Assembly (NCBI GenBank): GCA_023544645.1
Contig: JAMJFO010000036.1
Coordinates: 1-36,286 of the forward strand
Origin: Desulfobulbaceae bacterium
GTDB taxonomy: Bacteria > Desulfobacterota > Desulfobulbia > Desulfobulbales > Desulfobulbaceae
Direction: 5' to 3'
Length of the DNA stretch: 36,286 nucleotides
Part shown: one piece after another, positions 3,581 through 24,563 of the stretch
Layout: every line of letters begins with the position of its first letter
How positions within the stretch are numbered: the stretch's first letter is position 1
Translations under genes and position numbers: made by a program
The notes under the pieces: model-generated
What the model saw: the letters and a program-made list of their open reading frames with translations, nothing else
What the model was told of the DNA's origin: nothing
Database searches by the model: none

Positions 3581-3704
3581 ATCGTTGTCATATCTTGTTT
3601 ATTATGGAAGGCAATCCTGAATATGAACATGGAATGATAACCAGACCATCATTGTGTGTCAACATCCATTGCGCGTCACAATCCACTATGGTACAAACTC
3701 TTCC

Positions 3705-5909: not shown

Positions 5910-7261
5910 TGGCGGCAGCAGAAAAGTTACGTTACCGTGACGCCTGGAACTTCCTCGACCGGCTGCAGTTCTTCAAGATAAAGCTCGGCCTGGACTCGAT
6001 GAACGCATTCATGGCATCGCTGCACAACCCGCACCTGGAATTTCCGTGCATCCATATCGGCGGCACCAACGGCAAGGGTTCCGTCGGCGCCACCCTGCTC
6101 TCGATCCTGACCACAGCCGGGTATAAGGTGGGCTTTTACACGTCACCTCATCTTTCTTCCGTACGGGAAAGATTCAGGATTGGCGGCACATTCATATCCC
6201 GGGATGAATTTGCCGCCCAGGCGGACAGGATCATCAACATTCTCAATGGACGCCAGATAACCTATTTTGAATTTACAACAGCCATAGCCCTGCTCTGGTT
6301 TGCAGACCGGAAAGTGGATCTGGCCATTCTCGAAGTGGGCCTGGGCGGCAGGCTGGACGCGACCAATATCGTCACCCCGCTGGTCTCGGTCATCACCAAT
6401 GTCAGCATGGACCATGAGCAGTATCTGGGCAATACCATCACCGCGGTCGCCGCGGAAAAGGCAGGCATTATCAAGCCCGGGGTCCCGGTGGTAACCGGAA
6501 CAACCGATAAGGAAGCGCTGAAAACCATCGTTGATGCGGCGGAAAAACGTGGCAGTCCATTGTATGTTTCAGGCCGTGACTTTACCGGTGCACCGGTACA
6601 GGGAAACAGATCGCTGTGGTCCTACAAGGGAATTCAGTATATCACGGATGAGGCGCTTCCCCTGAACATGAAGGGGCAGTACCAGGTTGACAATGCCTCT
6701 CTGGCCCTGGCAGCCCTTGAGGTTATCAACGCACGTTTCCCGGTCACCGCGCCGCAGATTCGCCAGGGACTGGCCGGAACGTTCTGGCCGGGCCGGCTGG
6801 AGGAATTCTGGTGGCAGGGATTCAAACAGGTTTATCCCCAGCCGCCCCCGGATACTTCATCGGCCTGTCACTTCCTGCTGGACGGCGCCCACAATCCCGA
6901 CGGGGCAACGGCCCTGAAGAAGTCCCTGGAGCAGGATTTTGTCCATGAGCGACTCATCCTTGTCTGGGCATCCATGGCGGACAAGGATGTTCTTTCGACC
7001 CTGATGCAGATCGCGCCCCTGGCCGATACCATTATATTTACCCGACCCGACCAGGAACGTTCGGCAAAACCGGCAATGCTGATGAACATGCTGCCTGATT
7101 CCCTGCAGCAGAGGACCGTCTGTATTGACCAGGTCGACTCCGCCCTCGACCACGCGATGGCAGAATACACGCCGGGCGCCATGATCTGTGTCGCCGGGTC
7201 CCTTTATCTGGTGGGCCGGGTCCGGCAGATCCTCTGCGGCGAACAGGTGGACGACCAATGA
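5909..7261 (+). CDS. folC: Bifunctional folylpolyglutamate synthase / dihydrofolate synthase
   Basis: A 450-residue Mur-ligase-family enzyme. It adds glutamate to dihydropteroate and to reduced folates with ATP. The P-loop HIGGTNGKGSV is near residue 50, followed by the omega-loop TSPHLSSVRERF, the LEVGLGGRLDATN segment, the MDHEQYLG metal-site region, and FLLDGAHNPDGA at the C-terminal domain boundary. Length and motif order are normal. The start overlaps the helicase stop by one base, and the 3' end overlaps the HNH gene by four bases (ATGA at 7258-7261). Identification is strong. Confidence 0.95.
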   Translation: MAAAEKLRYRDAWNFLDRLQFFKIKLGLDSMNAFMASLHNPHLEFPCIHIGGTNGKGSVGATLLSILTTAGYKVGFYTSPHLSSVRERFRIGGTFISRDEFAAQADRIINILNGRQITYFEFTTAIALLWFADRKVDLAILEVGLGGRLDATNIVTPLVSVITNVSMDHEQYLGNTITAVAAEKAGIIKPGVPVVTGTTDKEALKTIVDAAEKRGSPLYVSGRDFTGAPVQGNRSLWSYKGIQYITDEALPLNMKGQYQVDNASLALAALEVINARFPVTAPQIRQGLAGTFWPGRLEEFWWQGFKQVYPQPPPDTSSACHFLLDGAHNPDGATALKKSLEQDFVHERLILVWASMADKDVLSTLMQIAPLADTIIFTRPDQERSAKPAMLMNMLPDSLQQRTVCIDQVDSALDHAMAEYTPGAMICVAGSLYLVGRVRQILCGEQVDDQ

Positions 7262-7578
7262 AAAACAAGGGTTATTTCAGCATTGACTGCATCGACGAGA
7301 GAATCATCAAGGCAGAGCGCGCCAAGGCCAGAAGTTTGCGCAAAACCAGGTGGTGGCAGCAGAAAACAGCCTCCGGCACCTGCTATTACTGCGGCCGCAA
7401 GGTCGGTTACGCCAATCTGACCATGGACCATATCATTCCTCTTTCGCGGGGCGGACGATCCACCAGGGACAACCTGGTTCCCTGCTGCAAGGAATGCAAC
7501 ACCAGGAAAAAAGGATCCCTGCCGGTGGAATGGGAAGAGTACCTGCAGACCCTTGACAACGCAGGCAAAACACCCTGA
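7258..7578 (+). CDS. HNH endonuclease family protein
   Basis: A 106-residue protein with a clear HNH fold. It has a zinc pair CYYC at 42-45, the core DHIIPLSRGG with the catalytic DH at 57-58, Asn72 in DNLVP, and a second zinc pair CCKEC (76/77 and 80) followed by N. Most of the first 35 residues are basic and could contact DNA. HNH proteins next to housekeeping genes are common and are usually of unknown target. Here the gene is translationally coupled to folC, and it ends 13 bases before a convergent gene. The nuclease fold is seen; its cellular role is unknown. Confidence 0.88.
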   Translation: MKNKGYFSIDCIDERIIKAERAKARSLRKTRWWQQKTASGTCYYCGRKVGYANLTMDHIIPLSRGGRSTRDNLVPCCKECNTRKKGSLPVEWEEYLQTLDNAGKTP

Positions 7579-7591
7579 CCGGAATTTCGGA

Positions 7592-8959
7592 TCAGCTCAG
7601 AAAATCTCCCAGGATTTCCATCACCCTGTCGGATTCAAAATAGGAGGTGTGCAGATTCAAGGACTCAAACTGGATGATCGGCTCGGGAGCAAGGCAGCTA
7701 TCGGGATCCTGGAGAAAGATCTTCCCCCCTTTTTGCGCAACCTTCTGCAGCCCGTCGTTAATGTGCAGGTCTGTCCCGCTCAGGATGACGACCGCCAGGT
7801 TGCTGCCAAAAACCTCGGCAGCCGAACTTAACAACTTGCTTGCATCCAGCAGTCCGCTCTCCATTTTCATGGTGGGAACAGCGAACCCTCCTTCCGCGGT
7901 GATTTCCCAGGAACCATGCCAGTAGGTGATCCCGCACTGTGAAGCCAGCATGGGAAAACCTGACCTGAGGGGCATGGGGTTCAAAACCGTCATTTTTTCA
8001 AAGTATTTGACAAGCTGGGGGGTTACTCCCGGATAGAGATCAAGAAAAACAAGGCTGGCAGAGGATTCGTTGCTGTTGATGCACCCCAGCATCTTCTGCA
8101 GCTCGATGAGGCTGCCGACGCCTCCCAGCACAATGAAAAGCTTTTTGGCCGGCCCGCCCAGCGGCATTTTGTAGTCGGCCATGGCCGGAGGCCTGGTCCG
8201 TTTAATATTCTTCAGCCTGATCTCCTTGATTTTCTCCGTCAATCGCCTGAGCCGTTTGCTGACAATATTCCACGTTTCAGCATCATTGGGCTTCTCAACC
8301 AGATCGACTGCTCCCAGACAGAGATATTCCATCATGGTCGGAAAATTCCGTTCATTGAAGCTGCTCATCAGGACAACGGGCACCGGGGTGCGGATCATGA
8401 TGTGCTTCAGGGGCATGGTTCCGCTTTCCACCGACAGATTGACATCCAGGGTCACCAGGTCGGGGTTCTCTCTTTCCAGGAACTGCAGCGCCTCCTCCAC
8501 GTTGGAAGCCTTGCCGGCAATCCTGGCTCCCAGTTCCTCGTCGAACAGCTTGACCAGCGCCTTGGTAAATATCTTGGAGTCATCGACCACCAGGACATTG
8601 AGGGGTTTGATCTGGGAAGATAAAGAAAGGGTGTCGCTCTGTTCATCGATGAAGCGCATGGCTTCCATGAGCAGAAAGTTCCATGACTCGTGGATTGTCT
8701 TTTCGTTCGTCTGGCCCGGAGTAAAGGTAAATGTTCCCCCCGGGCAGCACATGATCTCGATAAAAGCCTTCTGCCCGGAAATGGTTCCGGTCTCGGCATG
8801 CACCACCTCGCCCCTGGCAAAATAGATAACGCCGTGAAAATTATCCCCCCGGACCTCCAGCTTCCTTTCATATCGCTCCAGGCAGGCAAGCTGCACGATA
8901 TCGGCAAGCGTTATTCCCTCCAGGTAACCGTTGAAGACTTTTCCGGGCGATTCAGTCAT
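7592..8959 (-). CDS. PATAN-REC-CheB-like fusion with degenerate esterase site
   Basis: A 455-residue three-part signalling protein. Residues about 8-110 are a PATAN/DUF4388 domain (GYLEGITLADIVQL, IYFARGEVVHAE). Residues 120-245 are a receiver with acidic pair Asp126/127, phospho-acceptor Asp172 in TLDVNL, Ser/Thr switch MSS and Lys223 in EKP, so it looks phosphorylatable. Residues about 273-453 align with the CheB methylesterase domain. By eye, the catalytic Ser, His and Asp positions carry Gly280, Asp307 and His399, so demethylation is unlikely. A TTG 12 bases upstream is an alternative start. It is divergent from the chemosensory operon and probably an adaptor in it. Confidence 0.82.
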   Translation of the reverse strand: MTESPGKVFNGYLEGITLADIVQLACLERYERKLEVRGDNFHGVIYFARGEVVHAETGTISGQKAFIEIMCCPGGTFTFTPGQTNEKTIHESWNFLLMEAMRFIDEQSDTLSLSSQIKPLNVLVVDDSKIFTKALVKLFDEELGARIAGKASNVEEALQFLERENPDLVTLDVNLSVESGTMPLKHIMIRTPVPVVLMSSFNERNFPTMMEYLCLGAVDLVEKPNDAETWNIVSKRLRRLTEKIKEIRLKNIKRTRPPAMADYKMPLGGPAKKLFIVLGGVGSLIELQKMLGCINSNESSASLVFLDLYPGVTPQLVKYFEKMTVLNPMPLRSGFPMLASQCGITYWHGSWEITAEGGFAVPTMKMESGLLDASKLLSSAAEVFGSNLAVVILSGTDLHINDGLQKVAQKGGKIFLQDPDSCLAPEPIIQFESLNLHTSYFESDRVMEILGDFLS

Positions 8960-9530
8960 ATAACCAATCAAAAACAGAATTTTATGTAGGCACAGTGCGC
9001 ATGGACTGTTTGTTCAATCAGGAAAAACTGCCGCATGCATCAGTATTGCCGCGAATCATTTTTGTTCGGCAGGGCCAAACATGGTATATTATAAAGAATT
9101 CGGGTAAATACTCAATGAAAGAGTGAAAAAAAAGAAAAAAAGACCGGTGTTCAGCACAACCGGAGCGGTATTGAACAAACCCTGTCGTAATCTTTGGTTT
9201 TGCTGAATTAATCATGTTTTTCAACCGCAATGTCGGCTTCCGGGACGGATAACATGATATTCGTCAAATTATCCAAGAACAATGTTGACTTATTTTTGGT
9301 ATTATTCATATAATCAATAGAATTTATACTCTCGATTTGATTCAGTATATTAACTCGTGTCCACCCAGAAACGAGGATTTTTGTTCGAGATCAAGGCATG
9401 CGAAAAAAATTACCGCAGGCATATAGATGATATTCTGAGGATAATTTTTTGAGCATAACGCAGAGATCGGGCAAAAAGACCGTTTCTGGACGGGCACTAA
9501 CTCACTATGCAACATGTTTAAGCCGACCTG
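8960..9530. other. 571-base AT-rich divergent intergenic region
   Basis: This region separates the leftward PATAN-REC-CheB-like gene from the rightward chemosensory genes. It is clearly AT-richer than its surroundings and has no convincing coding frame. A 70-codon minus-strand frame inside it has no family resemblance and no good ribosome-binding site. It contains one strong sigma70-like promoter on the plus strand, listed separately, which leaves a 5' leader of about 210 bases before the REC-PATAN gene. Confidence 0.7.
9285..9314 (+). promoter_or_regulatory. Sigma70-type promoter for the chemosensory genes
   Basis: TTGACT at 9285-9290 and a perfect TATAAT at 9309-9314 are separated by 18 bases in an AT-rich stretch. 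Transcription would begin near 9321, giving a leader of about 210 bases before the start codon at 9531. This is the best promoter match seen in the locus. Its use is inferred only from consensus. Confidence 0.6.
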
Positions 9531-10226
9531 ATGGGTATAGACAGAATCCTCATAGTCGATAATGACATAAAACTGTTGAACAGCCTGAAATCAGGACTGG
9601 ACAAGTTTCGCCAGTTCAAAATACTGACTGCTTTTGACGGGATGCAGGCCCTCGCAATCCTCAAGAGGGAGAAGGTTTCCATCCTGGTTACCTGCTTACG
9701 AATGAGAAGAATGGACGGGCTGGAACTGCTGGCCGAGGTGACCAGGGAATACCCCAACATTCTTTCCATTGTAACAACCTCGCTCAGCTTCCCGCTCACC
9801 AAGGATGTCCAGGGCGACAGCCTGTTCAGTTACCTGAACAAACCGTTCAACCACCTCAGACTGCACAGTGAAATACTCAAAGTACTGGACTGCCTGGACG
9901 AGATTAATTTCAAATCCGGCATTTACCTGACTTCCATGCTGCCGCTTATCAACCTGGAACGAAAAACCTGCCTGCTGGAATTCAGCGCCGGCAGGGACCG
10001 TAAAGGATTCTTCCATTTTGACAACGGCGTCATCTGCGATGTCCGGTGCGACGATCTGGCAGACAGTGAGGCCCTGGAAAAAATGCTTTTCTGGGGACCG
10101 GGTCAGTATTGGTTCAAACCCCTTCCCGATGATCCGGCGGTCACGGAATTTCATGGCAGTCTTGCCCAGATGCTTGGCGAGGGCGACGGATTCAAGGACC
10201 TGGACCGAAAAATAAAAAAAAGATAA
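9531..10226 (+). CDS. Receiver-PATAN protein with Cys in place of phospho-acceptor Asp
   Basis: A 231-residue protein. The N-terminal receiver keeps the acidic pocket (IVDNDIKLL, Asp10 and Asp12), the Thr switch (VTT, 81-83) and the Lys (YLNKPF, Lys104). The phospho-acceptor position in LVTCLRMRRMDGLEL is Cys55, where canonical receivers have Asp (TDLRMPGMDG). Residues about 120-215 are a PATAN/DUF4388 domain (FHFDNGVICDVRC, QYWFKPLP). In cyanobacteria, PATAN-receiver proteins regulate type IV pilus motility, so a motility output is a reasonable inference. The ATG has only a poor ribosome-binding site. This is the first gene of the rightward chemosensory set. Confidence 0.85.
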   Translation: MGIDRILIVDNDIKLLNSLKSGLDKFRQFKILTAFDGMQALAILKREKVSILVTCLRMRRMDGLELLAEVTREYPNILSIVTTSLSFPLTKDVQGDSLFSYLNKPFNHLRLHSEILKVLDCLDEINFKSGIYLTSMLPLINLERKTCLLEFSAGRDRKGFFHFDNGVICDVRCDDLADSEALEKMLFWGPGQYWFKPLPDDPAVTEFHGSLAQMLGEGDGFKDLDRKIKKR

Positions 10227-10579
10227 ACAATATCCTGAATCCGATGAGCGTTCGAGAAGGGTGCATATGCAAGGCGGCAACGATGTTGATAATACTGATG
10301 GTATATCAACGAGTTGACAACACAGCAGATGCGCCCTTATCGGGCGCCCCGCAGGGCGGCGGGGTGAATCCGGACAACAACGGTTGATTCAAGTTATTGT
10401 GTTAAACAACAAGTACTTACCTATGAAAATGGCACGAAGCCGTCACGGATTCAGGAAGATGATCCAACTGCGTACAGGAGCCCGCCTTTACCCGAGATAA
10501 ACCGTTGGACATACCTTGATACTATTATGATAAACACCTATTTTACTGCGATTTCACCGTCGTACACATGGAGGGTTCG
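10227..10579. other. 353-base intergenic region with palindromic element
   Basis: This gap lies between the REC-PATAN and MCP genes. Its left third is an imperfect palindrome of about 82 bases, listed separately. Right after it is a short GC hairpin with arms CCCCGC and GCGGGG near 10347-10364. The remainder has no coding signal until the GGAGGG that precedes the MCP start at 10580. A TGGCAC at 10435-10440 lacks the matching -12 GC element and is not a sigma54 promoter. Confidence 0.6.
10257..10338. repeat. 82-base imperfect palindrome (possible REP/MITE-like element or terminator)
   Basis: The outer arms AAGGGTGCATATGC (10257-10270) and GCAGATGCGCCCTT (10325-10338) are complementary at 12 of 14 positions. 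The centre has a perfect 7-bp stem, GTTGATA (10285-10291) with TATCAAC (10304-10310). The nested symmetry could form a long cruciform or RNA hairpin 30 bases after the REC-PATAN stop. Such elements are often dispersed in a genome. There is only one copy in this window, so I cannot tell whether it is mobile. Confidence 0.6.
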
Positions 10580-12964
10580 ATGAGCAGCGGAAAGTCTGGC
10601 TCAAGGTTTGCTCGCCTCAGTTCAAAAATACTCTTGTCAATGGGGGGCGTTCTTCTCCTGTTTGCCCTTGTCATAGGCTTTCATTATGTCATCATGCTGC
10701 CCCAGGGCTCAGGGACCGCCAAGACCTCGGCCCGGGGAGACCTGCTGGCGGAACAGATGAAAGCATCGCTGCTGGAAGCGCAGAAGTATGAAAGCCTGTT
10801 CCGCTTGGACCCGGACCCTGTCTCCGTGGCCAAACACCAGGCAGCGGTCACGCAACTGCTTAGCTTTACCGAAAAATTTACCAAAACAGCCCGGGAAAAA
10901 AATGACCGTAAAAGTGTTGCCACGGCGGAGAAAATAATCAACTCCGCCCAGGAGCTGGATTCCGAGTTTCTCGATCTCGTTCAAGCCACAGAAACAAAAG
11001 GGATCAGCAATGCCTTCGGTTTACGGGAAAAACTCGCCGACGCGGGCCGGGAACTGGAAAAAGCCATAGCAAGAAACGAGGCTGGCACGCTTGCGCTGTC
11101 CCTTCTGCGGCTCCAGAGTTTTGGCAAGGAATACCTCAGGACCAACAGCACGATTGAACTCCGGAACCTGCGCGCGGAGATCAAGGATTTCAACCGGCTG
11201 TTAACGGACACCGCAATTGAACCTGTTGAAGCCCAGGTGCTCCGAAAAGGCCTCAGAGAATTCAATTCCGCCCTGGACCGGCACCAGGCGGTCAGCCTTG
11301 CCACCGGTGACCGCAGCCTGTCCGCCACTCTCAGCAAAGAGCAGGTTCGGCAGGCGGATGCCATGCGCACGGCCATGGACAACCTTGAGGACGTCATCAA
11401 CAGGATAAACGTTCCCGATGCCTTGCCCATGGCCCTGATCATCAGGCAGCATGAAGCAAAATACCTGTTGACCGGCGATGGAAATGATACGCGGCAGGTT
11501 ATTGAAGCTCTTGAAACCTTGACCGGATCATTCAATAACTCTTCGATCCTCCAGAAACATAAGGATGAAATTCTCGCGGCTGCGTCAGCTTACAGGGATG
11601 CCTTTACCGCCCTGGTCGATCAGGATGCGGAGATCAGCGAAATTCTGGCCAGATTGAACGCCATTTCGTCATCCATTGAGACCCAGATCGACACTATTGT
11701 TGCCAGTGGTCCGGGATCAGGAAAACCCCTGCCCTTTGCCGGCAGCGGGAACAATATGGCCATGACAGGCGCTATTGCCGGGCTGGCAGTGATTCTCATA
11801 GGCCTGCTGGTTGCGGTCTTTCTGGGAAAATCAATTTCAGCTCCCATTGTCAGCATGTCCAATATCATCCGCCGGATAACCGCCAACAAGGATTTCAGCG
11901 TGGAAATCCCGGTCAGCAGTCACTATGAAATCGGCGTGCTGGCCAGGGAGTTGAATGCGCTTCTCCGATTACAGGAAAGAGCACATAATCAGATTACGAT
12001 ACAATCAGGACTGTCGGAAAAATTTAACCAATTTAGCGACATCGCCCATGAGCTGCGGCAAGAAGTGGAGGAGATCGGCGGGATAAGAAGCAGGATGAGC
12101 GGTTCGGCCGCAGGCCAGCATGAACTGTTAGACAAGATTAACACTGCCCTCACCCGGTTAAGCGGCGCTGCCGATACCATGAACCAGATGTTTCAGCAGT
12201 CTGATGAACAGAACCAGCTGATAACGGACGCTGTTGAACACATAGGGAAATCCGTCGAAACAACGGTTGAAGGCATAAAGGCCATTACCCGTTCATCGTC
12301 CCAGTTCTCGGATATAGTAACACTGAGCGCCGAGATTACCGAGCAGACCAGCCTTCTGGCTCTCAATGCGTCGGTTAAGGCCGCAAGAGCAGGTTCACAC
12401 GGAAAAGAATTTGCCGTTATTGCCGACGAGATCGCGAATCTCGCCCAGCGTTCTGAAGAAGTCGCCCGGGAAGCCGGCCAGTTAACACTGGATCTGGACG
12501 CTAAAGTAGATGAGGCCATACAGCTTGGCGACGAATCGAAAAAATCCCTGGATCAGGTTCACGAGGCGGGCCGCCTCAACCTGTCGACAGCCCGGGAACT
12601 GGCAATTCAGACAGACCACATCAACAGCAGCGCCGGTGAACTCGGTGATTTAGTCAAGGACCTGGCCGCGACCGCCAATGAAATAGAAGCCATGGCAGAC
12701 GATCAGGCGTCAGGATGCGCGGCCGCCCTTGAATCCGTTGAATTACTGATGGAAACATCTTCAGCCATTGCCGGCGCAGCACCGGAAGGGGATGACAGCG
12801 TCGACACCACGCTAAAGCAGGCTGTCAATAACATTGCCGTTTCCCTGAACAACCGGGATGAAGGCGGCACGACCGAAGCGGATCGCCCGGATGATGCGCC
12901 GACAATACCTGACGAATCCGGGGAGGCCGAGATCGATGACCATGGAAACCCCTTGAAAAAATAA
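10580..12964 (+). CDS. MCP-like chemoreceptor with divergent signalling tip
   Basis: A 794-residue transducer. TM1 is about residues 13-37 (ILLSMGGVLLLFALVIGF). A mainly helical periplasmic region runs to about 390, followed by TM2 near 391-417 (AGLAVILIGLLVAVFLG), a HAMP domain (APIVSMSNIIRRI), and a cytoplasmic coiled coil. The signalling tip (QTSLLALNASVKAARAG, then FAVIADEIANLAQRS) is recognisable but altered: the usual EAARAGE reads KAARAGS. The last 55 or so residues are acidic and look disordered. The ATG at 10580 is chosen because GGAGGG ends four bases before it, although an in-frame ATG lies 12 bases upstream. It probably feeds the CheA-like kinase just downstream. The ligand is unknown. 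Confidence 0.88.
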   Translation: MSSGKSGSRFARLSSKILLSMGGVLLLFALVIGFHYVIMLPQGSGTAKTSARGDLLAEQMKASLLEAQKYESLFRLDPDPVSVAKHQAAVTQLLSFTEKFTKTAREKNDRKSVATAEKIINSAQELDSEFLDLVQATETKGISNAFGLREKLADAGRELEKAIARNEAGTLALSLLRLQSFGKEYLRTNSTIELRNLRAEIKDFNRLLTDTAIEPVEAQVLRKGLREFNSALDRHQAVSLATGDRSLSATLSKEQVRQADAMRTAMDNLEDVINRINVPDALPMALIIRQHEAKYLLTGDGNDTRQVIEALETLTGSFNNSSILQKHKDEILAAASAYRDAFTALVDQDAEISEILARLNAISSSIETQIDTIVASGPGSGKPLPFAGSGNNMAMTGAIAGLAVILIGLLVAVFLGKSISAPIVSMSNIIRRITANKDFSVEIPVSSHYEIGVLARELNALLRLQERAHNQITIQSGLSEKFNQFSDIAHELRQEVEEIGGIRSRMSGSAAGQHELLDKINTALTRLSGAADTMNQMFQQSDEQNQLITDAVEHIGKSVETTVEGIKAITRSSSQFSDIVTLSAEITEQTSLLALNASVKAARAGSHGKEFAVIADEIANLAQRSEEVAREAGQLTLDLDAKVDEAIQLGDESKKSLDQVHEAGRLNLSTARELAIQTDHINSSAGELGDLVKDLAATANEIEAMADDQASGCAAALESVELLMETSSAIAGAAPEGDDSVDTTLKQAVNNIAVSLNNRDEGGTTEADRPDDAPTIPDESGEAEIDDHGNPLKK

Positions 12965-13075
12965 GTTGAAAAGGTTCTGCATATAGTAGGTCCGAAAGCG
13001 GACATGGTAAACATTCCGATCAGGTATGCACTTGAAAAGTAAAACAAACAGAATTGGAATTCCAGGAACACATTA

Positions 13076-16000
13076 ATGGTCGATTCAGCCAGATTCGCAA
13101 CGTTTACTGAAAAAGCGAAACAAAATATTGATCAGATCAAGATCGGTCTGCTCAGACATGACAGGCATCCCAAAGACCGGGAATTCCTCAACGATATATC
13201 CAAGTCCGTCCATTCCATCAAAAATGCGGCTCTGGCGGCCAATTTGCCGCGGATCACCGAACTCTGCCATAATCTGGAAAACCTCATCAACCTGATCAAA
13301 GAAGAAAAAAAAGAACTTCACCAGGAAATTATCATCACCATTGCCGCCTGCAAGGATCGCCTGATCAAATTCATTTTTGAGCTGGAAACCGTTCAGATGG
13401 AACGGGCCAAGGTCAAAGACCTGGTCAACCGCATTCAACAGCACATCGATGACTACAAGATGGCAGAGTTCCCTGAAACCGCGCCTGCACTTTCAGGGGT
13501 TGATTCCTCGGCGGAACCGGAACCTGCTCCTTCAGCGGAAGTCGAATCATCGCTGCTGCCCGAAGAGGTTATCAACAAGGACTATGACAAGGAATTATTT
13601 CAGATCTTCATCGGTCAGGTCCAGGAAAACATATCACTTCTGCGCACCCTGACAGATAGTTTTCCCGACGCCTCCAACCAGACAAAAATTATCAGCCAGT
13701 GCTCCGATCTGGCTGGAAAGCTGCAGTCTTCGGCCAACTACATGAGTTATAACCGGCTGGCCGATTTTTATCTCCAATGGGTTGCAGAACTTGAAATGGC
13801 CGGGGTCGAGCTGTCAATGGGGAACCCTGTTAACCTTGATTTCATGGATCAGAATATCAAAAAGATTGCGGAACTGTTCCCGGAGATCAATGATGTGCCG
13901 GCTGATCCCGCCGAGCTGCAAAAAGCCGAGGAACCATCCATTCAAGCGTCTGCCGAGCCGAATTACAAGGAAGTAGAATTTTCCGCCGATGCCGATGACA
14001 TGCAGGAAATGTTCGGCACCCTTGACGAAATCGAAGACGAAGAATTTGAAGGGGAGGAAGAGCCCATTGCCGCCCTCTCCGGTGAAATCTCCCCTGAAGA
14101 AGAGGAAGCCATGGCCGCCGGCGAATCGTCCAAGCCCCTGGCGGTCAGGAAACAGGCCCGCGGAAAAAAAACCATCGAAATAGATTCTTCATTCCTCGAA
14201 GATGAAAAACAAAGCGAGGGTTATGACGAAGAGCTTTTTCAGATCTTTGTGCAGCAGCTGCAGGAAAACATTTCTCAACTGCAAAATCTCACTGACAGCT
14301 TTGCCGGCGAACCCAACAAATCCAATATCATTGACAAGTGCTCCAACCTGGTGGGCAAGCTCCAATCATCGGCCAACTACATGGGCTATGAACGGCTGGC
14401 GGAATTTTACCTGCAATGGATCGCCGAGCTTGAAATGACCGGGGTGGAACTTTCCATCGGCAGTGACATATCATTCGACTTCATGCAGGAAAAGATAGAC
14501 CGGATTGTCGGACTGTTTCCGGAAGCCGGCGGTTCGCCATCCGCCCGGCCCCAACAAATACCAGCAGAAAAAGCACCGGTCCCTGAGCCGGTCATCGCCC
14601 GCGAAGAGATTTCCGGACCTGATGCCGAGACTGCTTCTCCCGATGACCACGAGGTTGCAAAGGTTGCCGGCGAAATACCCGTTCCAGGAACCGCGGCAGA
14701 AATTTTTGAAGATAATGAAGAAGAAGACGAAGAAGAGCCCCTGGCTGAAGGAATTGAACCGATTGCCGGACTATCGGATGAAGAGCTTGTAGAGGCAGAC
14801 GGAATCACCGGCGCCATGTTCGATGAACAGCCGGAAACCGCCGATACCGAGGAACCGGAGCGCGGCGAGTTCAGCGAAGCAGTGGATGAAAAACTGGAAA
14901 GCTTCTTTGCCGACATCAAGGAGCCGGAAAGCGATGAAGATCTGGAGTCATCCTTCATGGCCATCGCCTCACTCAGCGAGGAGGAACCCGAAGAAGAAAC
15001 TCCGTCCGGGGAAATTGCATCCATCGCCGGTTTATCCGATCTGCAGGAGGACGAACCCGAGGAAACCGTTGATTCACTGTTTGAAGAAAATCATGGGGTA
15101 GTCGCCGAAGAAGCGAAAAGCGGGGAATTCAAAGACGACCTGGATGAAGAGCTGGACAGTTTCTTCGCCGATCTCCAGGAATCGCCTGAAGAAGACAGGG
15201 AGACTTCCTTCACCGGGATTGCCTCGGTCAGTGAAGAGGGGGGAGAGCCGCCTGCCCCGGCAGCAAAAACACCTGCTTCCGCTGATGTTGATGCAAACGC
15301 CTTGTTTGATGAGGAAAAAGAAGAGGAGCCCCTGGCTGATGGTGTTGAACCGATTGCCGGTGTTCCAGATGAAGAAGCTGAAGGCTTCGGGGAAATAAGC
15401 GGCGCCCTGTTCGATGAACACCCGGCAGCCCCCGCGGCTGAGGAACCGGAACGCGGCGAATTCAGCGAAGCAGTGGATGACCAGTTGGAGAGCTTCTTTG
15501 CCGACATCGAGGAACCGGAAGGCGATGAAGACCTAGAATCATCCTTCATGGAGATCGCCTCATTCAGCGGGGATGACCAGGAAGAAGAAACCGTTTTCAC
15601 GGCAGAACCCCCCGGCTCCCCTGTTGCTGATGAACTGTTTGCCGAAGAAGAGGAAAAGGAGCTTCCGACTGCGGGAACTGAAGGGTCTGGAGATGCGTCA
15701 GCAGCATTGTTCGAGCGGGAACCGGACACCGAATACGGGGCGGAAACAACAGAAGCAGAGATTGCGGCTCCGGCAGCCGACGACATCCTTGAGGGCATCG
15801 ACGCCTTTTTTGATGAAGAACACGAGGCGGAGCCGGATGCAGAACCGCCGGTGGAAGCGCCGGTGGCCAGAGAAGTATCCGAAGATTTTGAAGCAATTTT
15901 CACTGAAACTGAATCTGAGGAATCCGCGGAAGCTTCACTTACGCTGCCAAGAGAAACGGGAGCTGAGGGTTTGGAAAGTGCCGCAGAGGAAGAGGTTGCG

Positions 16001-18037
16001 GGTCCGGCGGCCGATGACATCCTTGAGGGCATTGACGACTTTTTCGATGAAGATCACGAGGTAGAGCCGGAAACAGAACCGCCCGAAGAAGTGCCGGTGG
16101 CCGGTGAAATGTCCGAAGACCTTGATGAGGAAACGGCTTTTTCCGAGGAAGAAATTGCCGATGAAGATACAGTCGCGGCCCATCCCGGAGAATTACTGAG
16201 TGATGAAGAACTGCTCGAGGAAATTGAAGGACCTACAGTCGGGGAACAAATACCACCTCAGGCACAGACACTGCTCTCCGAGTTTGAAGGCGCGGAGGAA
16301 GTTCTTTCCTCCCTGCCGGAGGATCAACAGGCCGAAGAGGAGTTGTTCAGAAAGCTTGAAGGCGCCATTTCTGCAGAGGAAGAAAAGGCGGAAGATATTG
16401 AAGACCTGTCGGTTGATGAGGATATATTTGATGAGTCTGAAACAGCTGAAGCACCAGCAGAAACTCCGCCCCAACGCCGGGAGCTGTTCCAGAAACTGAG
16501 CCACGCCCTGCAGTCACTGGAAGAAGAATCCGAGTTCGAGGATTCTGAAGAAGTTGCGGCAGAACCGGCAACCCCATCGCCTGAAGCGGAATTTGACCAT
16601 ACACTTTTTGACAGGCTCATCAGCGCGCTCGAAACTCCATCGGAACAGGCGGAAATATCCGGTGCCAGGCCCATGGATCATGTCCTGGAAGAAATTCTAT
16701 CCAGCAAGCCCGTTAAAGCGGAGCATGCCAAACCCGTTGCTGACACCCTCCCCGGAAAACTGGCGCCTTCAGAGATCAGGCAGATTATCCGCATGGATAC
16801 CGATAAGGTCGATCACCTGATGAACCAGTTGGGGGAGTTGAACGCCAACCGCTCCACCCTGATCCGCCTCCAGGCCGAAATGGACGACCTGCATCATCAT
16901 TATCGTGAAATGGACGGCTTGAGTAAACAGGAGCTTAAACCGTTAAAAGACCTTATTTTCCGTCTTGGTGATACCAGCACATCCCTGCACAGACTTTCCA
17001 GCGAAATCCGCGAAGGCATCCTGAAGGTGAAAACAGTCCCCATCGGATTGCTTTTCGACCGCTATCATCAATATATCAACACCTTGGCCGCTGCTGCCAA
17101 CAAGCAGGTTGAGCTGGAAATTGCCGGTGCAGATACCGAGCTGGAGAAAGTTGTTGCCGATGAAATTTCCGAGCCGCTGTCCCACCTCATCAGCAATATG
17201 GTCGAACATGGCATCGAACCGGTTGCCGAACGGAAACAGCTTGGTAAAAACGAAACAGGAAAAATAGAGCTGAAAGCTTATCATCGGGACAATGAAATCG
17301 TTATCAAGATCATGGACGATGGCCGAGGACTCGATATTGCGCAAATAAAGGCCAGAGCGTTGGAACAGGGCCTGTTTACAGGTGACGAACTGTTCAAAAT
17401 GTCTGACAGCGACCTCAAACGCCTTATTCTGCATCCGGGATTCTCAACCGTTGTGGACAAAGGAGAAAAACCCGATTATCGCGGCGAAGGATTGTATATC
17501 GTCAACAAGAGTATAGAAAAACTCAAGGGAAACATCGACATCAGATCCAGAAAAGGCAAAGGGACTCTTCTCCAGATCAGTATCCCGCTGAACCTGTTGG
17601 TCATTAAGGCGCTGAAGACCAGGGCCGGGAAAGAAATCATGGCCCTTCCCGTCAACTGTATCGATGAAATCCTCAAGGTGCGCAACGATGATATCCATGA
17701 AGAGAACGGCCGCAGGATCATCACGATCCGTGACACGACTCTGCCTGTTTTCAGCCTGACGGAGATTTTCAATATCGAACCTGTTGCGAGGCCGGATGAA
17801 CGGACGTATATCATCATTGTCAAGGCTGAAGGGCGATCCATCGGCCTGATCGTTGATGAAACCCTTGGGCTGGAAGAGATCGTCATCAAACCCCTTGGCG
17901 AATTTCTCCGCCGGAAAAGCGGATTTTCCGGGGCAACAATTATCAGTGACGGCAACATCTCCCTTATCCCGGATATTGCCGAATTGATGCGCATTGCGGC
18001 AGAACATCAGCCCATTGTTGAAGAAAGCATGGCCTGA
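13076..18037 (+). CDS. Giant CheA-like histidine kinase with acidic repeat linker
   Basis: A 1653-residue protein, over twice the usual CheA length. Residues 1-130 are an Hpt/P1 domain with phospho-site His46 in SVHSIKNAA. Two related modules (about 167-270 and 380-485, both containing GKLQSSANYM) are Hpt-like but lack His at that position. Residues about 490-1225 are an extremely Glu/Asp-rich linker with internal repeats. From about 1231 come the dimerisation helices, the ATPase (N-box HLISNMVEHGIE, DDGRGLD, PGFST, RGEGLYIV) and a C-terminal CheW-like domain from about 1500. The kinase should phosphorylate its own His46 in an MCP array. AGGA lies eight bases before the ATG. The output partner is not evident, since no intact CheY is nearby. 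Confidence 0.9.
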   Translation: MVDSARFATFTEKAKQNIDQIKIGLLRHDRHPKDREFLNDISKSVHSIKNAALAANLPRITELCHNLENLINLIKEEKKELHQEIIITIAACKDRLIKFIFELETVQMERAKVKDLVNRIQQHIDDYKMAEFPETAPALSGVDSSAEPEPAPSAEVESSLLPEEVINKDYDKELFQIFIGQVQENISLLRTLTDSFPDASNQTKIISQCSDLAGKLQSSANYMSYNRLADFYLQWVAELEMAGVELSMGNPVNLDFMDQNIKKIAELFPEINDVPADPAELQKAEEPSIQASAEPNYKEVEFSADADDMQEMFGTLDEIEDEEFEGEEEPIAALSGEISPEEEEAMAAGESSKPLAVRKQARGKKTIEIDSSFLEDEKQSEGYDEELFQIFVQQLQENISQLQNLTDSFAGEPNKSNIIDKCSNLVGKLQSSANYMGYERLAEFYLQWIAELEMTGVELSIGSDISFDFMQEKIDRIVGLFPEAGGSPSARPQQIPAEKAPVPEPVIAREEISGPDAETASPDDHEVAKVAGEIPVPGTAAEIFEDNEEEDEEEPLAEGIEPIAGLSDEELVEADGITGAMFDEQPETADTEEPERGEFSEAVDEKLESFFADIKEPESDEDLESSFMAIASLSEEEPEEETPSGEIASIAGLSDLQEDEPEETVDSLFEENHGVVAEEAKSGEFKDDLDEELDSFFADLQESPEEDRETSFTGIASVSEEGGEPPAPAAKTPASADVDANALFDEEKEEEPLADGVEPIAGVPDEEAEGFGEISGALFDEHPAAPAAEEPERGEFSEAVDDQLESFFADIEEPEGDEDLESSFMEIASFSGDDQEEETVFTAEPPGSPVADELFAEEEEKELPTAGTEGSGDASAALFEREPDTEYGAETTEAEIAAPAADDILEGIDAFFDEEHEAEPDAEPPVEAPVAREVSEDFEAIFTETESEESAEASLTLPRETGAEGLESAAEEEVAGPAADDILEGIDDFFDEDHEVEPETEPPEEVPVAGEMSEDLDEETAFSEEEIADEDTVAAHPGELLSDEELLEEIEGPTVGEQIPPQAQTLLSEFEGAEEVLSSLPEDQQAEEELFRKLEGAISAEEEKAEDIEDLSVDEDIFDESETAEAPAETPPQRRELFQKLSHALQSLEEESEFEDSEEVAAEPATPSPEAEFDHTLFDRLISALETPSEQAEISGARPMDHVLEEILSSKPVKAEHAKPVADTLPGKLAPSEIRQIIRMDTDKVDHLMNQLGELNANRSTLIRLQAEMDDLHHHYREMDGLSKQELKPLKDLIFRLGDTSTSLHRLSSEIREGILKVKTVPIGLLFDRYHQYINTLAAAANKQVELEIAGADTELEKVVADEISEPLSHLISNMVEHGIEPVAERKQLGKNETGKIELKAYHRDNEIVIKIMDDGRGLDIAQIKARALEQGLFTGDELFKMSDSDLKRLILHPGFSTVVDKGEKPDYRGEGLYIVNKSIEKLKGNIDIRSRKGKGTLLQISIPLNLLVIKALKTRAGKEIMALPVNCIDEILKVRNDDIHEENGRRIITIRDTTLPVFSLTEIFNIEPVARPDERTYIIIVKAEGRSIGLIVDETLGLEEIVIKPLGEFLRRKSGFSGATIISDGNISLIPDIAELMRIAAEHQPIVEESMA
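14733..14983 (+). repeat. Intragenic repeat copy 1 in the CheA linker
   Basis: This encodes EEPLAEGIEPIAGLSDEE through the ERGEFSEAVDEKLESFFADI segment to SSFMAIASLS. The second copy lies exactly 591 bases (197 codons) downstream and is strongly similar at DNA level, especially from 14851 on. This points to an in-frame duplication rather than convergence on acidic sequence. A looser third version of the ESFFADI module begins near 15118. Confidence 0.75.
15324..15574 (+). repeat. Intragenic repeat copy 2 in the CheA linker
   Basis: This matches copy 1 at a constant offset of 591 bases: EEPLADGVEPIAGVPDEE, ERGEFSEAVDDQLESFFADI, SSFMEIASFS. Further downstream, near 15776 and 16010, a different pair of modules (ADDILEGIDxFF) repeats. 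The linker therefore consists of several short repeated helical motifs set in acidic spacer. Confidence 0.75.
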
Positions 18038-18085
18038 AATTTTTACAGGATTGCACAGGCTAAATGAAAATGCGGACACAAAACC

Positions 18086-18178
18086 ATGATTGATCAAGGT
18101 AATGAAAAAATGGTTTCAGACAACCATGCAGCAGACGCCATCGCTGCCGAAGCAGGTCGCGGAAGGATCAACATATGA
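18086..18178 (+). CDS. Possible 30-residue peptide upstream of the ParA gene
   Basis: A short frame of 30 codons whose TGA overlaps the ATG of the ParA gene (ATGA, 18175-18178). It encodes an ordinary soluble composition (MIDQGNEKMVSDNHAADA then IAAEAG...) with no recognisable domain. Its start has only a weak ribosome-binding site, while ParA has its own GGAAGG. It could be a coupling leader peptide or chance. The overlap is the only real evidence. Confidence 0.3.
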   Translation: MIDQGNEKMVSDNHAADAIAAEAGRGRINI

Positions 18179-19104
18179 TCATCACCTGTGAAAAATGCAA
18201 CGCCAGGTATGACCTGGATGTCTCAAGCATCCGCAAGCCTTCTTTCAAAGTCCGCTGCGCGCAGTGCAACCACGGGTTCACGGTTCACAAGCCGGCGGAA
18301 CCGGAAACGGATATTTCCCTGAGCGAAGCAGTGCGGCCGGATCATGACCACCTGGTTGTCTCCATCAGCAACCAGAAAGGAGGTGTGGCCAAGACATCCA
18401 CCTGCATGAACCTGGGCCTGTCCCTCTCAAAACTGGGTAAAAAAGTTCTGCTGATTGATTTTGATGTACAAGCCAACCTGACCACTTCCCTTGACCTTTC
18501 GCCGAACCTGCCGTCCTTCTTTGATGTTCTCAATTCGGGGATCGAAAATATCAGCCGGCACATCCATGAAACCTCAATCCCTGACCTGAACATCCTGCCC
18601 GCCAACAGCAGGATGGCCCTGCTGGGCAAGCAGTATATGCATACACCCAACTTTGAATTCATGCTGCGCGACAGTTTGAAATGGGTGAATAACAGCTTTG
18701 ATTACATCCTGATCGATACGCCGCCGGCCATAGGCTACTGTACCCTGAATGCCCTGATGGCATCGGACCATGTCATTATCCCCACCCCCTGCGAGTATCT
18801 CTCCATGCATGGAATCCACAAGATAGAGGAGATTATCCGGATCGTCAAAAGGCGGACGGGGAGCAATATCGACTACACCATCCTGATAGCCATGCATGAT
18901 CCGCGTAGTGTTGCTTCCAGGGTCATCTTCAAAAAGATCGGGGACATGTTCAAGGATAAGGTTTTCAAAACCACCATCGAGCTGGACGAAAAAATAAAAG
19001 AATCGCAGATCCTGCATCAACCGGTCCATATCTACGACCCGAAAAGCAGCTCCGCCAGACAGTACATGGAACTGGCGCAGGAATTCCTTGACCGGACATC
19101 CTGA
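18175..19104 (+). CDS. ParA-family ATPase with N-terminal MJ0042-type zinc ribbon
   Basis: A 309-residue protein. Residues 1-40 are a zinc ribbon with CEKC (5-8) and CAQC (28-31), typical of the MJ0042 family. After a short acidic linker comes a ParA/MinD-type ATPase: deviant Walker A NQKGGVAKTST at 66-76, Walker A' LLIDFDVQANLT, and Walker B YILIDTPPAIG. ParA-like ATPases placed within chemotaxis operons are known to position or segregate receptor arrays (ParC and PpfA), and this is the likely role here. GGAAGG eight bases before the ATG supports the start. A ParB-type partner is absent, as expected for such cytoplasmic positioning systems. The zinc ribbon on the N terminus is unusual. Confidence 0.88.
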   Translation: MIITCEKCNARYDLDVSSIRKPSFKVRCAQCNHGFTVHKPAEPETDISLSEAVRPDHDHLVVSISNQKGGVAKTSTCMNLGLSLSKLGKKVLLIDFDVQANLTTSLDLSPNLPSFFDVLNSGIENISRHIHETSIPDLNILPANSRMALLGKQYMHTPNFEFMLRDSLKWVNNSFDYILIDTPPAIGYCTLNALMASDHVIIPTPCEYLSMHGIHKIEEIIRIVKRRTGSNIDYTILIAMHDPRSVASRVIFKKIGDMFKDKVFKTTIELDEKIKESQILHQPVHIYDPKSSSARQYMELAQEFLDRTS

Positions 19105-19267: not shown

Positions 19268-20053
19268 ATGCTTTCCGTTAAATTAACAAAAGAACGCTCC
19301 ATGCTCTTGTATGCGGCCTGGAAGGCCCTGCTTTTTGCTTTTCTGCTCACCTTTGCCATAAGCTTTGCCGCCGGGATCATCCTGATTACAATAATAGACA
19401 TCAGCCCTGAAGCCATATATCAGATTTCCAGCAAACGAATATCGTATATTTTTCCTGTTATTGAATCCGGCGTTAAAGCAGGCATCGATCCCGGGCTGCT
19501 GATATTTCTCTGGAACTCGCTGGGGGCACTGGCCACCATCTCCTTTATTTATACCGCAACATTTTTTGATCCCCACAAAATCTCCCGGTTTCCCCGGGGA
19601 CTGCGCAAAATATTCTGCGGCCGGACCAGGATGAAGATTTTCTGTTTTCTGCCCGGCTGCCAGCCCATTGCCGAAGAATCCCTGCGCAGACTGTATGTCT
19701 GGCTCATGGTCCCACTGCTGGGCATGATACTGCTCGGAGTGGAGACCGGATTCTCTGTTTCCACCTCGACATTTCTTTTTGATTCCGCACCCCTTGCCTT
19801 CATATCATTGCTGCCGCATGGAATCATCGAAATCCCTGCCATTGCCCTGGCCGGAGCGGTCAGTTTTTCCGCCCACCTGCTGATGCAGGAGGAAACACCT
19901 GAAACAATGACAGATGAAATGTTTGGCAGGATTGAAGCCCATAAAAAAGAACTGCCAATCATGCTTATCGGATTTTCAGTTCTCCTCAGCCTGTTCTCCG
20001 CGGGCCTCATCGAAGCCCATGTAACAGGGAGGATCATGGCTTTGCTGAGTTGA
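19268..20053 (+). CDS. SpoIIM/DUF95-family integral membrane protein
   Basis: A 261-residue polytopic protein with about five hydrophobic segments. The signature LLPHGIIEIPAIALAGAV near residues 178-195 is the hallmark PHG-x-x-EIPA-x-x-LAG of the stage II sporulation M (DUF95) family, which is widespread outside spore-formers and of unclear function there. In spore-formers SpoIIM belongs to the engulfment peptidoglycan machinery. No sporulation context exists here. It follows the ParA gene after 163 bases on the same strand and may or may not belong to that unit. No clear terminator separates them. Confidence 0.85.
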   Translation: MLSVKLTKERSMLLYAAWKALLFAFLLTFAISFAAGIILITIIDISPEAIYQISSKRISYIFPVIESGVKAGIDPGLLIFLWNSLGALATISFIYTATFFDPHKISRFPRGLRKIFCGRTRMKIFCFLPGCQPIAEESLRRLYVWLMVPLLGMILLGVETGFSVSTSTFLFDSAPLAFISLLPHGIIEIPAIALAGAVSFSAHLLMQEETPETMTDEMFGRIEAHKKELPIMLIGFSVLLSLFSAGLIEAHVTGRIMALLS

Positions 20054-20247: not shown

Positions 20248-20324
20248 GGGCGGGTAGCTCAGCTGGATAGAGTGTTGGCCTCCGAAGCCAAAGGCCGCGG
20301 GTTCGAATCCCGCCTCGCCCACCA
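20248..20324 (+). tRNA. tRNA-Arg (anticodon CCG), CCA encoded
   Basis: A full cloverleaf of 77 bases. The acceptor GGGCGGG pairs with CTCGCCC with one G-U. The D-arm is GCTC...GAGT. The anticodon stem TTGGC/GCCAA carries loop CTCCGAA (anticodon CCG). The variable loop is AGGCC, the T-arm is GCGGG/CCCGC with TTCGAAT, the discriminator is A, and CCA is encoded. It sits at the left edge of the toxin-antitoxin island, the usual position of an integration target. Confidence 0.95.
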
Positions 20325-20334
20325 AAAAATAAAG

Positions 20335-20369
20335 AAAATCCGAGAAGTAACAAGCTTCTCGGATTTTTT
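20335..20369 (+). terminator. Rho-independent terminator of tRNA-Arg
   Basis: A perfect 13-bp stem: AAAATCCGAGAAG at 20335-20347 pairs with CTTCTCGGATTTT starting at 20355. The loop is seven bases, and a T-run continues past the stem. It lies 10 bases after the CCA end. Confidence 0.85.
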
Positions 20370-20890
20370 GTTTTTTCCCAAAATACCCCCTTTTTTGCCC
20401 CCGAGTGTCCCATGAGTGTCCCAAGTATCACCACGTGTTACCACGTAGAAACGATGGGTTGTCCCAAGTGTCCCATGTGTCCCGTTGACGAGCAGTTTCA
20501 CAAAAAAAAATTGCGCTGTCCGCAACCATAGAGTATCTTTGAGTATTTTCCGCTGTGCGGTTGTACCCGAGAGTAGACTGCCGCACAGTAACCGCCTCGT
20601 GGAATGATGCGGAATAGCTGGGCCCTTGTGGTCCTTGAATTTTAGGAACCTTGTGGCCGCCGATTCTTGACGGCCCCTTGCTTGCCTGACGCCGGTAGCC
20701 CGCTAGGCAAGTGAACGTTTGCGACACACACTTTTTTCACCGGCGGCAATCCACCGGAATACACTCGAACCCCATCAGGCGCCACCCACGCTAGAGGTGC
20801 GCCCGCCCATACCTTGATCAATTTTCTTCAAGTCTAAGCGCTTTCATCTCTTTCGAAGCGCAAGCCTCCGTATTATCCTCTTCCGCTTGC
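20370..20890. other. 521-base region without a convincing gene, left end of the island
   Basis: The left part carries the GTGTCCCA repeats listed separately. The middle has minus-strand open frames without any family resemblance. Just before the AbrB fragment, a minus-strand frame of 30 codons (stop at 20818-20820) with plausible codon use (KEMKALRLEEN at its end) is cut by the duplication junction at 20902. It may be the 3' end of a lost gene. Nothing else is supported. Confidence 0.5.
20405..20484. repeat. Five GTGTCCCA-type direct repeats, possible integrase arm-binding sites
   Basis: GTGTCCCA occurs at 20405 and 20416 (11-base spacing). Variants TTGTCCCA, GTGTCCCA and GTGTCCCG occur at 20459, 20468 and 20477 (9-base spacing). 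The cluster starts 80 bases past the 3' end of tRNA-Arg. Short direct repeats at near-helical spacing beside a tRNA 3' end resemble arm-type sites of tyrosine integrases. No integrase gene is present to confirm this. Confidence 0.45.
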
Positions 20891-21073
20891 TCAGGGAAGC
20901 TGTTCATCAAATTCATCGATTGAGGGTGGGGTAATGCTTTTTAAAATTACAACGTCTTTGTCGCCAACAACGATGAACTGGGAACCAGCTTTTAAATTTA
21001 GATTTCTACGAATATTCTCCGGAATTACGACTTGCCCTTTTGACGACATTTTTGTGGTGGATACGTTTGCCAT
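20891..21073 (-). pseudogene. Truncated AbrB-family antitoxin (duplicate copy)
   Basis: The first 53 or so residues are the same AbrB/SpoVT swapped-hairpin DNA-binding domain as the full copy at 21790-22053 (TTKMSSKGQVVIPENIRR). Identity stops at the shared DEFDE, after which it reads QLP and ends, so the protein is 60 residues instead of 87. The C-terminal part expected to contact the toxin is missing. The promoter, palindromic operator and GGAGG ribosome-binding site are all duplicated too. The fragment may still bind the operators. Confidence 0.8.
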
Positions 21074-21342
21074 GATGAGCCTCCAAAAATATATCTTTCT
21101 TACATGTAAGATTATACTGCGACTGACTCCAAATGGCAATACTGGGATCATTTTAGATATGAAGTTTTTTTGGGAAAAGTTGTTCCGGCGGTTAAACTCA
21201 TGTCAAAGAGCATTTCGGCGGCCGGCGGCTCTCGCGGGCGGCCCTCAACAAGGCGTTTCGCCAGGTCGAAAAAGATATGGAAGGCTGGGAGGAGGTCGAC
21301 TCTGCCAAGATCCGGGAATGGTAATCCGGACCGGCAGTCCGC
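20902..21342. repeat. Direct repeat, copy A (about 440 bases)
   Basis: Nearly identical to 21882-22321 at an offset of 980 bases, with a handful of substitutions and one one-base indel (near 21285). It includes the abrB 5' part, its promoter and operator, and a plus-strand gene-end fragment. The left junction lies inside the abrB coding sequence. Confidence 0.9.
21099..21139 (-). promoter_or_regulatory. Promoter and palindromic operator of abrB copy A
   Basis: Read on the minus strand: TTGCCA (21139-21134), a 17-base spacer and TATAAT (21116-21111), followed at once by the perfect palindrome CTTACATGTAAG (21099-21110), where transcription should start. Identical to the arrangement at copy B. 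Confidence 0.65.
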
Positions 21343-21388
21343 ATACGTTCACGACCTCAAGTAAACTTTTCTTGTTCCCTTCTATCCT

Positions 21389-21793
21389 TTATTTTAAATA
21401 GTTATCGACGAATTGGCGTGGTTTCAAAATCTCAATATCTTTATAGCCAGATAACTTGAGTAAGTGTTTGTCACCACTGACAATCATCTTGCTTTGACTG
21501 GCTATTGCGCACTCAATAAATTTGTTGTCGTCTGGATCTTCGCATACTGTCTCGGAAATACCTTTTGTCCCAACAAATTCCCCGAAAATCGTGAATAGCT
21601 CAATTATTGGCTCAATGTTTACCGATGGATATGTAGACGAAAGTTCATATCTAACTCTTTGATATTATTCAATTATCTGTTCTGTCAGGACAATTCTGAC
21701 TTTTGATTGCCTCCACGACTTGAGTATTTGCGATGGAGGACCACCGAAAAAAATGCCGGAAATGAAAACATTGGTATCCAGAACAATTTTCAT
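21389..21793 (-). pseudogene. PIN-domain toxin (COG1569-like) broken by a nonsense codon
   Basis: A 134-codon frame. Its start overlaps the AbrB antitoxin stop (ATGA, 21790-21793). The product begins MKIVLDTNVFISGIFFGGPP and continues, after one in-frame TAA, through EDPDDNKFIECA and SGDKHLLKLSGY to FVDNYLK. Those are the PIN ribonuclease acidic motifs (Asp6, the DPDDNKF Asp cluster, the Asp of SGD). The TAA is codon 43 (21665-21667), just after TEQIIE, where family members normally read E-E/Y-R. Only one base separates GAA from TAA. The rest of the frame is intact, so the inactivation looks recent, or it could be a sequencing error. Confidence 0.85.
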
Positions 21794-23275: not shown

Positions 23276-23302
23276 GTTGTTCTCCACAATTGATTTGACC
23301 AT

Positions 23303-24556: not shown

Positions 24557-24563
24557 GAAAATC

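Follow-up and report, generated by a model that had tools for sequence, protein, structure and literature searches.

A chemosensory locus of a Desulfobulbaceae bacterium appears to be a reduced form of a larger system with pseudo-CheB proteins

How can a chemosensory pathway work when several of its usual genes are missing and others encode altered proteins? This question is raised by a locus in a Desulfobulbaceae bacterium (assembly GCA_023544645.1) in which a methyl-accepting chemotaxis protein (MCP) and a CheA with P1, P3, P4, and P5 domains are encoded together (Pfam), along with a PATAN-REC-pseudo-CheB protein that we call PATAN-CheB, a REC-PATAN protein, and a ParA-type ATPase. The locus lies in a window of 36,286 bases, the whole of contig JAMJFO010000036.1 (C83), in a genome of 3.85 Mb in 153 contigs. 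An initial annotation of this DNA had suggested that the altered parts together point to a pathway wired through binding rather than standard phosphotransfer and methylation, possibly controlling type IV pili. Pfam, open reading frame (ORF) reading, and direct reading of the sequence bore out the five genes at their coordinates (Table 1), their domains, and their altered residues. The PATAN-CheB gene is on the minus strand and is followed on the plus strand by the REC-PATAN, MCP, CheA, and ParA genes. We found that this locus is a real, conserved version of a known kind of system and a new variant in its details, and that the suggested interpretation is supported in part. With moderate confidence, we favor the reading that it is a once-reduced derivative of a complete system whose pseudo-CheBs were already phospho-gated, and that what remains is mainly an MCP-CheA scaffold for the two PATAN proteins.

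The complete locus was found by ORF maps and tblastn in the congener G006 and in G014, G022, G024, G030, and G032. Its genes encode a REC-PATAN-REC-CheB fusion of about 600 residues, an MCP, CheW, CheY, a HAMP protein, CheA, a CheB of about 345 residues, and ParA; in G008 the same genes lie on two contigs, in a partly different order. In G014, G022, G024, G030, and G032, ParA is followed by genes for an ABC transporter, an NMT1-like protein, PilZ, TauE, and PATAN-CheB, and there is a second HAMP protein. The G006 contig ends in ParA, and its PATAN-CheB gene is divergent at the opposite end, as in the window. A scan of named contigs showed CheA, CheB, ParA, transporter genes, and PATAN-CheB together in the cable bacteria Candidatus Electrothrix and Electronema, in Desulfobulbus sp. 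F5, and in a Desulfocapsa metagenome-assembled genome (MAG), with CheW and CheY of these loci outside the fetched flank. Thermodesulfatator and Thermodesulfobacteriaceae MAGs have a related gene order, in which a tandem of three CheB homologues precedes CheY and CheA.

The order seen in the window recurs in the congeners G001, G003, G004, and G005, where ORF maps and tblastn revealed PATAN-CheB, REC-PATAN, MCP, CheA, and ParA and no CheW, CheY, CheB, or HAMP protein in the locus. In G002, whose locus is split over two contigs, PATAN-CheB and MCP-CheA-ParA were seen without the lost genes in between, and REC-PATAN was not seen. A tree of PATAN-CheB and ParA set the reduced genomes (the window's own, G000, to G005) apart from G006 and the rest with support of 1.000 and had the window branch first among the reduced genomes (0.995); this tree was built from genes of the locus itself, with other genera as the root, and is not a species tree. 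The same two nodes had support of 0.998 and 0.979 with PATAN-CheB alone and of 0.887 and 0.860 with ParA alone. By parsimony, one loss event common to these six genomes would have removed CheW, CheY, the stand-alone CheB, the HAMP protein, and half of the fusion. As the comparison shows, the window locus descends by reduction from a larger chemosensory locus, which is found in cable bacteria and their relatives.

Within the window, the only match to the CheW family (PF01584) on the contig is CheA P5, and tblastn with two CheWs of complete loci gave no match above 35 bits. There is no cheR match in the window, the CheR matches of the genome being on other contigs, and tblastn with one CheY query matched only the REC domain of PATAN-CheB. 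No remnants of CheW, CheY, or the stand-alone CheB were found between the window genes (tblastn, E 1e-4, matches above 35 bits). The claim that CheW, CheR, and CheY are missing locally stands within the scope of these searches. CheA carries its own CheW-like P5 domain at the C-terminal end, which the initial annotation had left out along with a His in the first Hpt domain and the canonical receiver of PATAN-CheB.

PATAN-CheB combines PATAN (DUF4388), REC, and CheB domains, with a PF14332 match of 64.2 bits (cut-off, 25). Its ORF opens at TTG 8971, and orthologues favor ATG 8959. Counted from the TTG, the triad positions are Gly284, Asp311, and His403, so that the window protein has no Ser-His-Asp triad; the annotated numbers, Gly280, Asp307, and His399, are four lower because they were counted from the ATG. 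The nucleophile position is Gly in 13 of 13 aligned sequences, the window included, which supports an altered state that is more than drift in one genome, and the catalytic His is lost too. The Asp position holds varied residues across named loci. The receiver has the canonical DD, D, and K residues, in VVDDS, TLDVN, and EKP. In a structural model, the REC-linked CheB fold matched the CheB methylesterases 6ymz and 1a2o with target-normalized TM-scores of 0.83 and 0.80 (Foldseek). Thus, PATAN-CheB has the REC-CheB fold in common with the enzyme and differs from it by the added N-terminal PATAN domain and by the loss of nucleophile and His in all 13 sequences. Such a protein can probably still be switched by phosphate, its enzyme site being lost, and would act by binding other proteins, perhaps of pili, and not on receptor methylation. 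Of 73 family genomes, 21 have a PATAN-CheB match (E 1e-60), 21 have a ParA match (E 1e-50), and 20 have both. One genome, G061, has a solitary PATAN-CheB (L069:3790-5160), 59% identical to that of the window; its contig of 19.5 kb gave no tblastn match for REC-PATAN, MCP, CheA, or ParA, and the genome as a whole has no ParA match at E 1e-50.

Is this loss peculiar to one genome? We aligned the CheB-domain proteins of 44 named loci (L064 to L107), out of 46; L108 and L109, from a Bacteroidales MAG and Lysinibacillus, were dropped as weak receiver-only matches. The Ser-His-Asp triad is retained in 3 of the 92 proteins, which are not independent, near relatives being included, and the most diverged of which are hard to align. 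In the adjoining receivers of the same 92 proteins, the phospho-acceptor Asp is present in 92, both acidic residues in 91, and the Lys in 92. These loci were gathered by PATAN-CheB motifs, which makes PATAN-CheB a selected sample; the other CheBs of the loci were not so selected. The three intact triads are in L098, L103, and L107, in proteins that match the CheB half of the fusion. The identical alignment procedure recovered Ser-His-Asp in all three other CheBs encoded in the window's genome and in 8 of 11 CheBs from other loci. Two of the three failures, L030 and L034, have ESGY/EGGY motifs resembling the fusion type; the third is L022. Set against each other, the triad and receiver counts argue that methylesterase chemistry was mostly lost while phospho-control of the CheB proteins was kept, and the dead CheB is old and general across related loci and not the drift of one genome. 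A CheB without REC, the reverse of the case here, occurs in Campylobacterota, according to excerpts of PMC9239204 and PMC9321776.

The MCP and CheA also differ between complete and reduced loci. The MCP tip reads QTSLLALNASVKAARAG in the window and QTNLLALNAAIEAARAG in complete relatives. The Glu of NAAIEA, which corresponds to the trimer-contact residue Tsr E385, is present in seven of seven complete MCPs aligned and is replaced by Lys in six of six reduced ones (Lys604 in the window, 12377-12379). In CheA, the Gly of HxxKG is Asn or Asp in all six reduced proteins, and the G2 box GRGVGMD is lost in all five in which it was read (YRGEGLY in the window). At the P1 His position, G000, G001, and G002 still have His, and G003, G004, and G005 have Arg. 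The kinase looks eroded in the reduced clade, as judged from these motifs.

The two His-less repeats of CheA, at about residues 172-271 and 384-483, have a different history. Their near-invariant SSANYM(G)Y motif is common to the window CheA and the CheAs of complete loci. The repeats are therefore ancestral, present also alongside cheW and cheY, and not a sign of recent rewiring. They were modeled as helical bundles with high confidence. P1 matches CheA P1 structures (1tqg, Z 17.4), and the matches to the first repeat are generic bundles only. A profile comparison of repeat and P1 gave a weak match (probability, 18.6%), in register, with Gly opposite His46. The repeats are probably docking sites. 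The multi-Hpt CheA ChpA of Pseudomonas likewise has several helical-bundle modules ahead of the kinase core; the window CheA differs from that type in having His in P1 only, repeats with the SSANYMGY motif, and, with the reduced clade, a core without the G2 box.

REC-PATAN is 58.7% identical to the N-terminal 225 residues of the 620-residue fusion of G006, and it therefore corresponds to the fusion minus its REC-CheB half. Its Cys55 (TGC, 9693-9695) sits at the position of the phospho-acceptor Asp, and its acidic pair is DN. The initial annotation had counted close orthologues with a canonical Asp and an intact CheB triad in the same gene order as evidence against itself, and the Asp, one part of this, is what we found in the four reduced congeners in which the gene was seen and in the sister G006. 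The equivalent residue is Asn in the fusion receiver of six loci from other genera. Given this distribution, Asp would have been lost at least twice in this receiver, with Cys55 a change private to the window. We thus rejected the idea that all of the oddities belong together as far as Cys55 is concerned; it holds for CheB (Gly in 13 of 13; triad in 3 of 92) and for the receptor tip (six of six reduced). Apart from Cys55, congeners have the same genes and most of the same altered states, which suggests more than chance. A second che cluster of the same genome, on contig C68, encodes two REC-PATAN-like proteins with canonical Asp (L061:12873-14343), next to a CheA and an intact-triad CheB. In FrzS of Myxococcus, which takes part in type IV pilus control, the receiver lacks phosphorylation residues and functions through binding (PMC11580455), and the same is proposed here for the Cys55 receiver; FrzS has a coiled coil and no PATAN domain, and the likeness is one of description.

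Starting from the reduction, triad loss, receiver conservation, and G2-box change seen by comparison, and from the purifying selection described below, we propose the following. In the complete system, an array of receptor, CheW, and CheA would phosphorylate CheY and two or three CheB homologues at their intact receivers. Those homologues without a methylesterase site would then exert their effect as binding proteins, by way of PATAN and the inert CheB fold. The window's lineage would have lost CheW, CheY, the stand-alone CheB, and the REC-CheB half of the fusion, leaving the receptor, CheA, the two PATAN proteins, and ParA. The MCP-CheA complex would now serve chiefly as a scaffold, its kinase output weak or absent, and the His-less repeats and P1 may dock the two PATAN proteins. 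Phosphate might still reach PATAN-CheB from what remains of CheA activity or from a different kinase, and the REC-PATAN of the window would work without phosphate. ParA would position the complex, and the PATAN domains would act on a putative target, the type IV pilus motor. For ParA, whose Walker A motif is KGGVAKT, this role is a proposal; it resembles the array-positioning ATPases ParC and PpfA, where a ParA-family gene likewise adjoins a chemosensory CheA, and differs from them by its N-terminal zinc ribbon.

The pilus as output is plausible by analogy, since PATAN regulators of cyanobacteria bind PilB1 and PilC, according to excerpts of PMC12288463 and PMC7690835. In the partial descriptions available, the cyanobacterial Pix/Tax-type systems (PixG, PixE, and LsiR) have, as here, a chemotaxis-like array with PATAN-receiver outputs, and no PATAN-REC-pseudo-CheB fusion is described there. 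The locus here differs from those systems in having PATAN on CheB homologues, in its loss of CheW and CheY, and in encoding a zinc-ribbon ParA. FliG_C had no match in G000 to G005 and one in G006. Over the family, it was matched in 3 of 22 genomes with the locus and in 36 of 51 others (Fisher P = 7.9e-6), a comparison uncorrected for kinship and due mainly to a few genera. PilT-family matches are present in all seven genomes of the genus, with two in the window's genome. The genera g9 and g14 (G014, G022, G024, G030, G032, and G086 to G093) have four PilT-family matches in 11 of 13 genomes and two and three in the other two; almost all of the remaining genomes of the family have one to three, and G011 also has four.

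Several observations weigh against this scaffold reading. The locus includes no recognized pilus gene, and 71 of 73 family genomes have PilT-family matches whether or not they carry the locus. The PF14332 match of REC-PATAN is marginal (25.1 bits against a cut-off of 25), and Pfam found none in the G003 orthologue or in the G022 fusion; the G006 fusion does have PATAN by Pfam (32.7 bits). The first Hpt of the window CheA retains the phospho-His46, in SVHSIKN, and the N box and G1 are retained, so that autokinase activity may persist. The P4 segment, with a ratio of nonsynonymous to synonymous substitution rates (dN/dS) of 0.17 between G003 and G005, is constrained like the outputs, which argues against a simple loss of ATP binding. 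Since the window has both His46 and the Asp of PATAN-CheB, the residues needed for a phosphotransfer step are still there. The claim of binding rather than phosphotransfer thus gains from the general loss of the methylesterase triad, but it does not fit the canonical receiver of PATAN-CheB or His46, and the His is lost in only three congeners.

The remaining objections belong to the strongest rival, an ordinary chemosensory pathway with its parts in trans, in which CheW, CheR, CheB, and CheY from other che clusters serve this MCP and CheA and only the local genes were dropped. The window's genome has 13 CheW-domain matches, twelve of them on four other contigs, four CheR matches, and canonical CheBs on C11, C68, and C116, and the P1 His46 of its CheA is present. 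CheR matches are also present in all 13 genomes in which the locus was read (G000 to G006, G008, G014, G022, G024, G030, and G032), never on the locus contig, and in 56 of 73 family genomes; therefore, a distant CheR may methylate the receptors of the locus. However, the congener G005 (88% complete) has no CheW domain beyond P5 of this CheA, and no orthologue of the locus CheW was found elsewhere in the reduced genomes, where the best-scoring match was 28% identical. Moreover, the MCP tip and the CheA G2 box changed in the very clade without CheW. We consider supply in trans unlikely.

We also asked whether the locus is decaying, the genes left after the loss of CheW, CheY, and CheB drifting towards pseudogenes. 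The stepwise loss of the P1 His, the G2 box, and the Asp at the Cys55 position of the window would fit, as would the fast evolution of the MCP (dN/dS of 0.42) and CheA (0.34) in the close pair G003-G005. However, in the same pair PATAN-CheB (0.18), REC-PATAN (0.13), and ParA (0.16) are constrained about as strongly as UvrD of the same neighborhood is in other, more distant pairs (0.17 to 0.30), for which dS is near saturation and the ratios are rough. Thus, purifying selection still acts on these three proteins, with tight constraint on the output proteins and loose constraint on the sensor side. In the five reduced genomes in which the whole locus was read, each of the five genes has an open frame, and the gene order persists across divergent species. 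Decay is improbable in light of these data. Least probable of all is that the altered CheB sites have another chemistry and are not dead, although the stand-alone CheBs (e.g., L051:12678-13715) have Glu at the His position in 20 named proteins and Asp in G006, preceded by Ser, Thr, or Asn and followed by Asp, as if selected for a new site and not by drift, since PATAN-CheB, the sole CheB left in the window, has Gly for the nucleophile in 13 of 13 and a varied Asp position.

Table 1. Coordinates, strands, and supporting evidence for the features of the locus
Feature	Position	Strand	Evidence
PATAN-CheB (PATAN-REC-pseudo-CheB protein)	7592..8959	-	Pfam; orthologue alignment; model matches full-length CheB 6ymz/1a2o
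REC-PATAN protein, similar to first part of REC-PATAN-REC-CheB fusion	9531..10226	+	Pfam (PATAN marginal); identity to G006 fusion; residue alignment
MCP (HAMP + MCPsignal) with altered signaling tip	10568..12964	+	Pfam; tip alignment
CheA, 1653 residues: Hpt P1 with His46, two His-less repeats, long acidic linker, P3, P4, P5 (CheW-like)	13076..18037	+	Pfam
First His-less helical repeat of CheA, SSANYM motif	13589..13888	+	Alignment; model; structure-match ranges about 171-271; weak profile match to P1
Second His-less helical repeat of CheA, SSANYMGY motif	14225..14524	+	Alignment; model
CheA P3-P5: N box and G1 retained, G2 box GRGVGMD to YRGEGLY	16781..17992	+	Pfam ranges; alignment with complete loci
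ParA-type ATPase with N-terminal zinc ribbon	18175..19104	+	Pfam; orthologues in 7/7 genus genomes (window included)

On the PATAN-CheB side, the locus is adjoined by GH3, UvrD, Mur ligase, and HNH genes (1907-7578), as it is in G001, G004, G005, and the complete G006. After ParA lies a gene for a SpoIIM-like membrane protein (19268-20053), which we rejected as a part of the locus, as it had no match in the loci compared. It is followed at 20248-25330 by a tRNA-Arg (ccg) gene and then about 5 kb, where three ORFs scanned had no Pfam match.

Among open-licence papers, a search that gives weak evidence of absence, no title or abstract found deals with catalytically dead CheBs, nor with CheA or other chemosensory genes of cable bacteria. 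Gliding lets cable bacteria live in redox gradients, according to an excerpt of PMC12449579. Tentatively, cable bacteria and their relatives may have traded methylesterase adaptation for binding by phospho-gated pseudo-CheBs, and in the window's genus CheA may be a pseudokinase scaffold in an array without its own CheW, where regulated binding would carry the signal and some species would have no phosphorelay. In textbooks, CheB is the response regulator whose output is enzymatic; that nearly every CheB homologue here lacks the enzyme and has the phosphate switch suggests that the CheB fold can be a switchable binding module. The genus offers a graded series, from the complete locus of G006 to reduced loci with and without the phospho-His, for asking how far arrays can be stripped.

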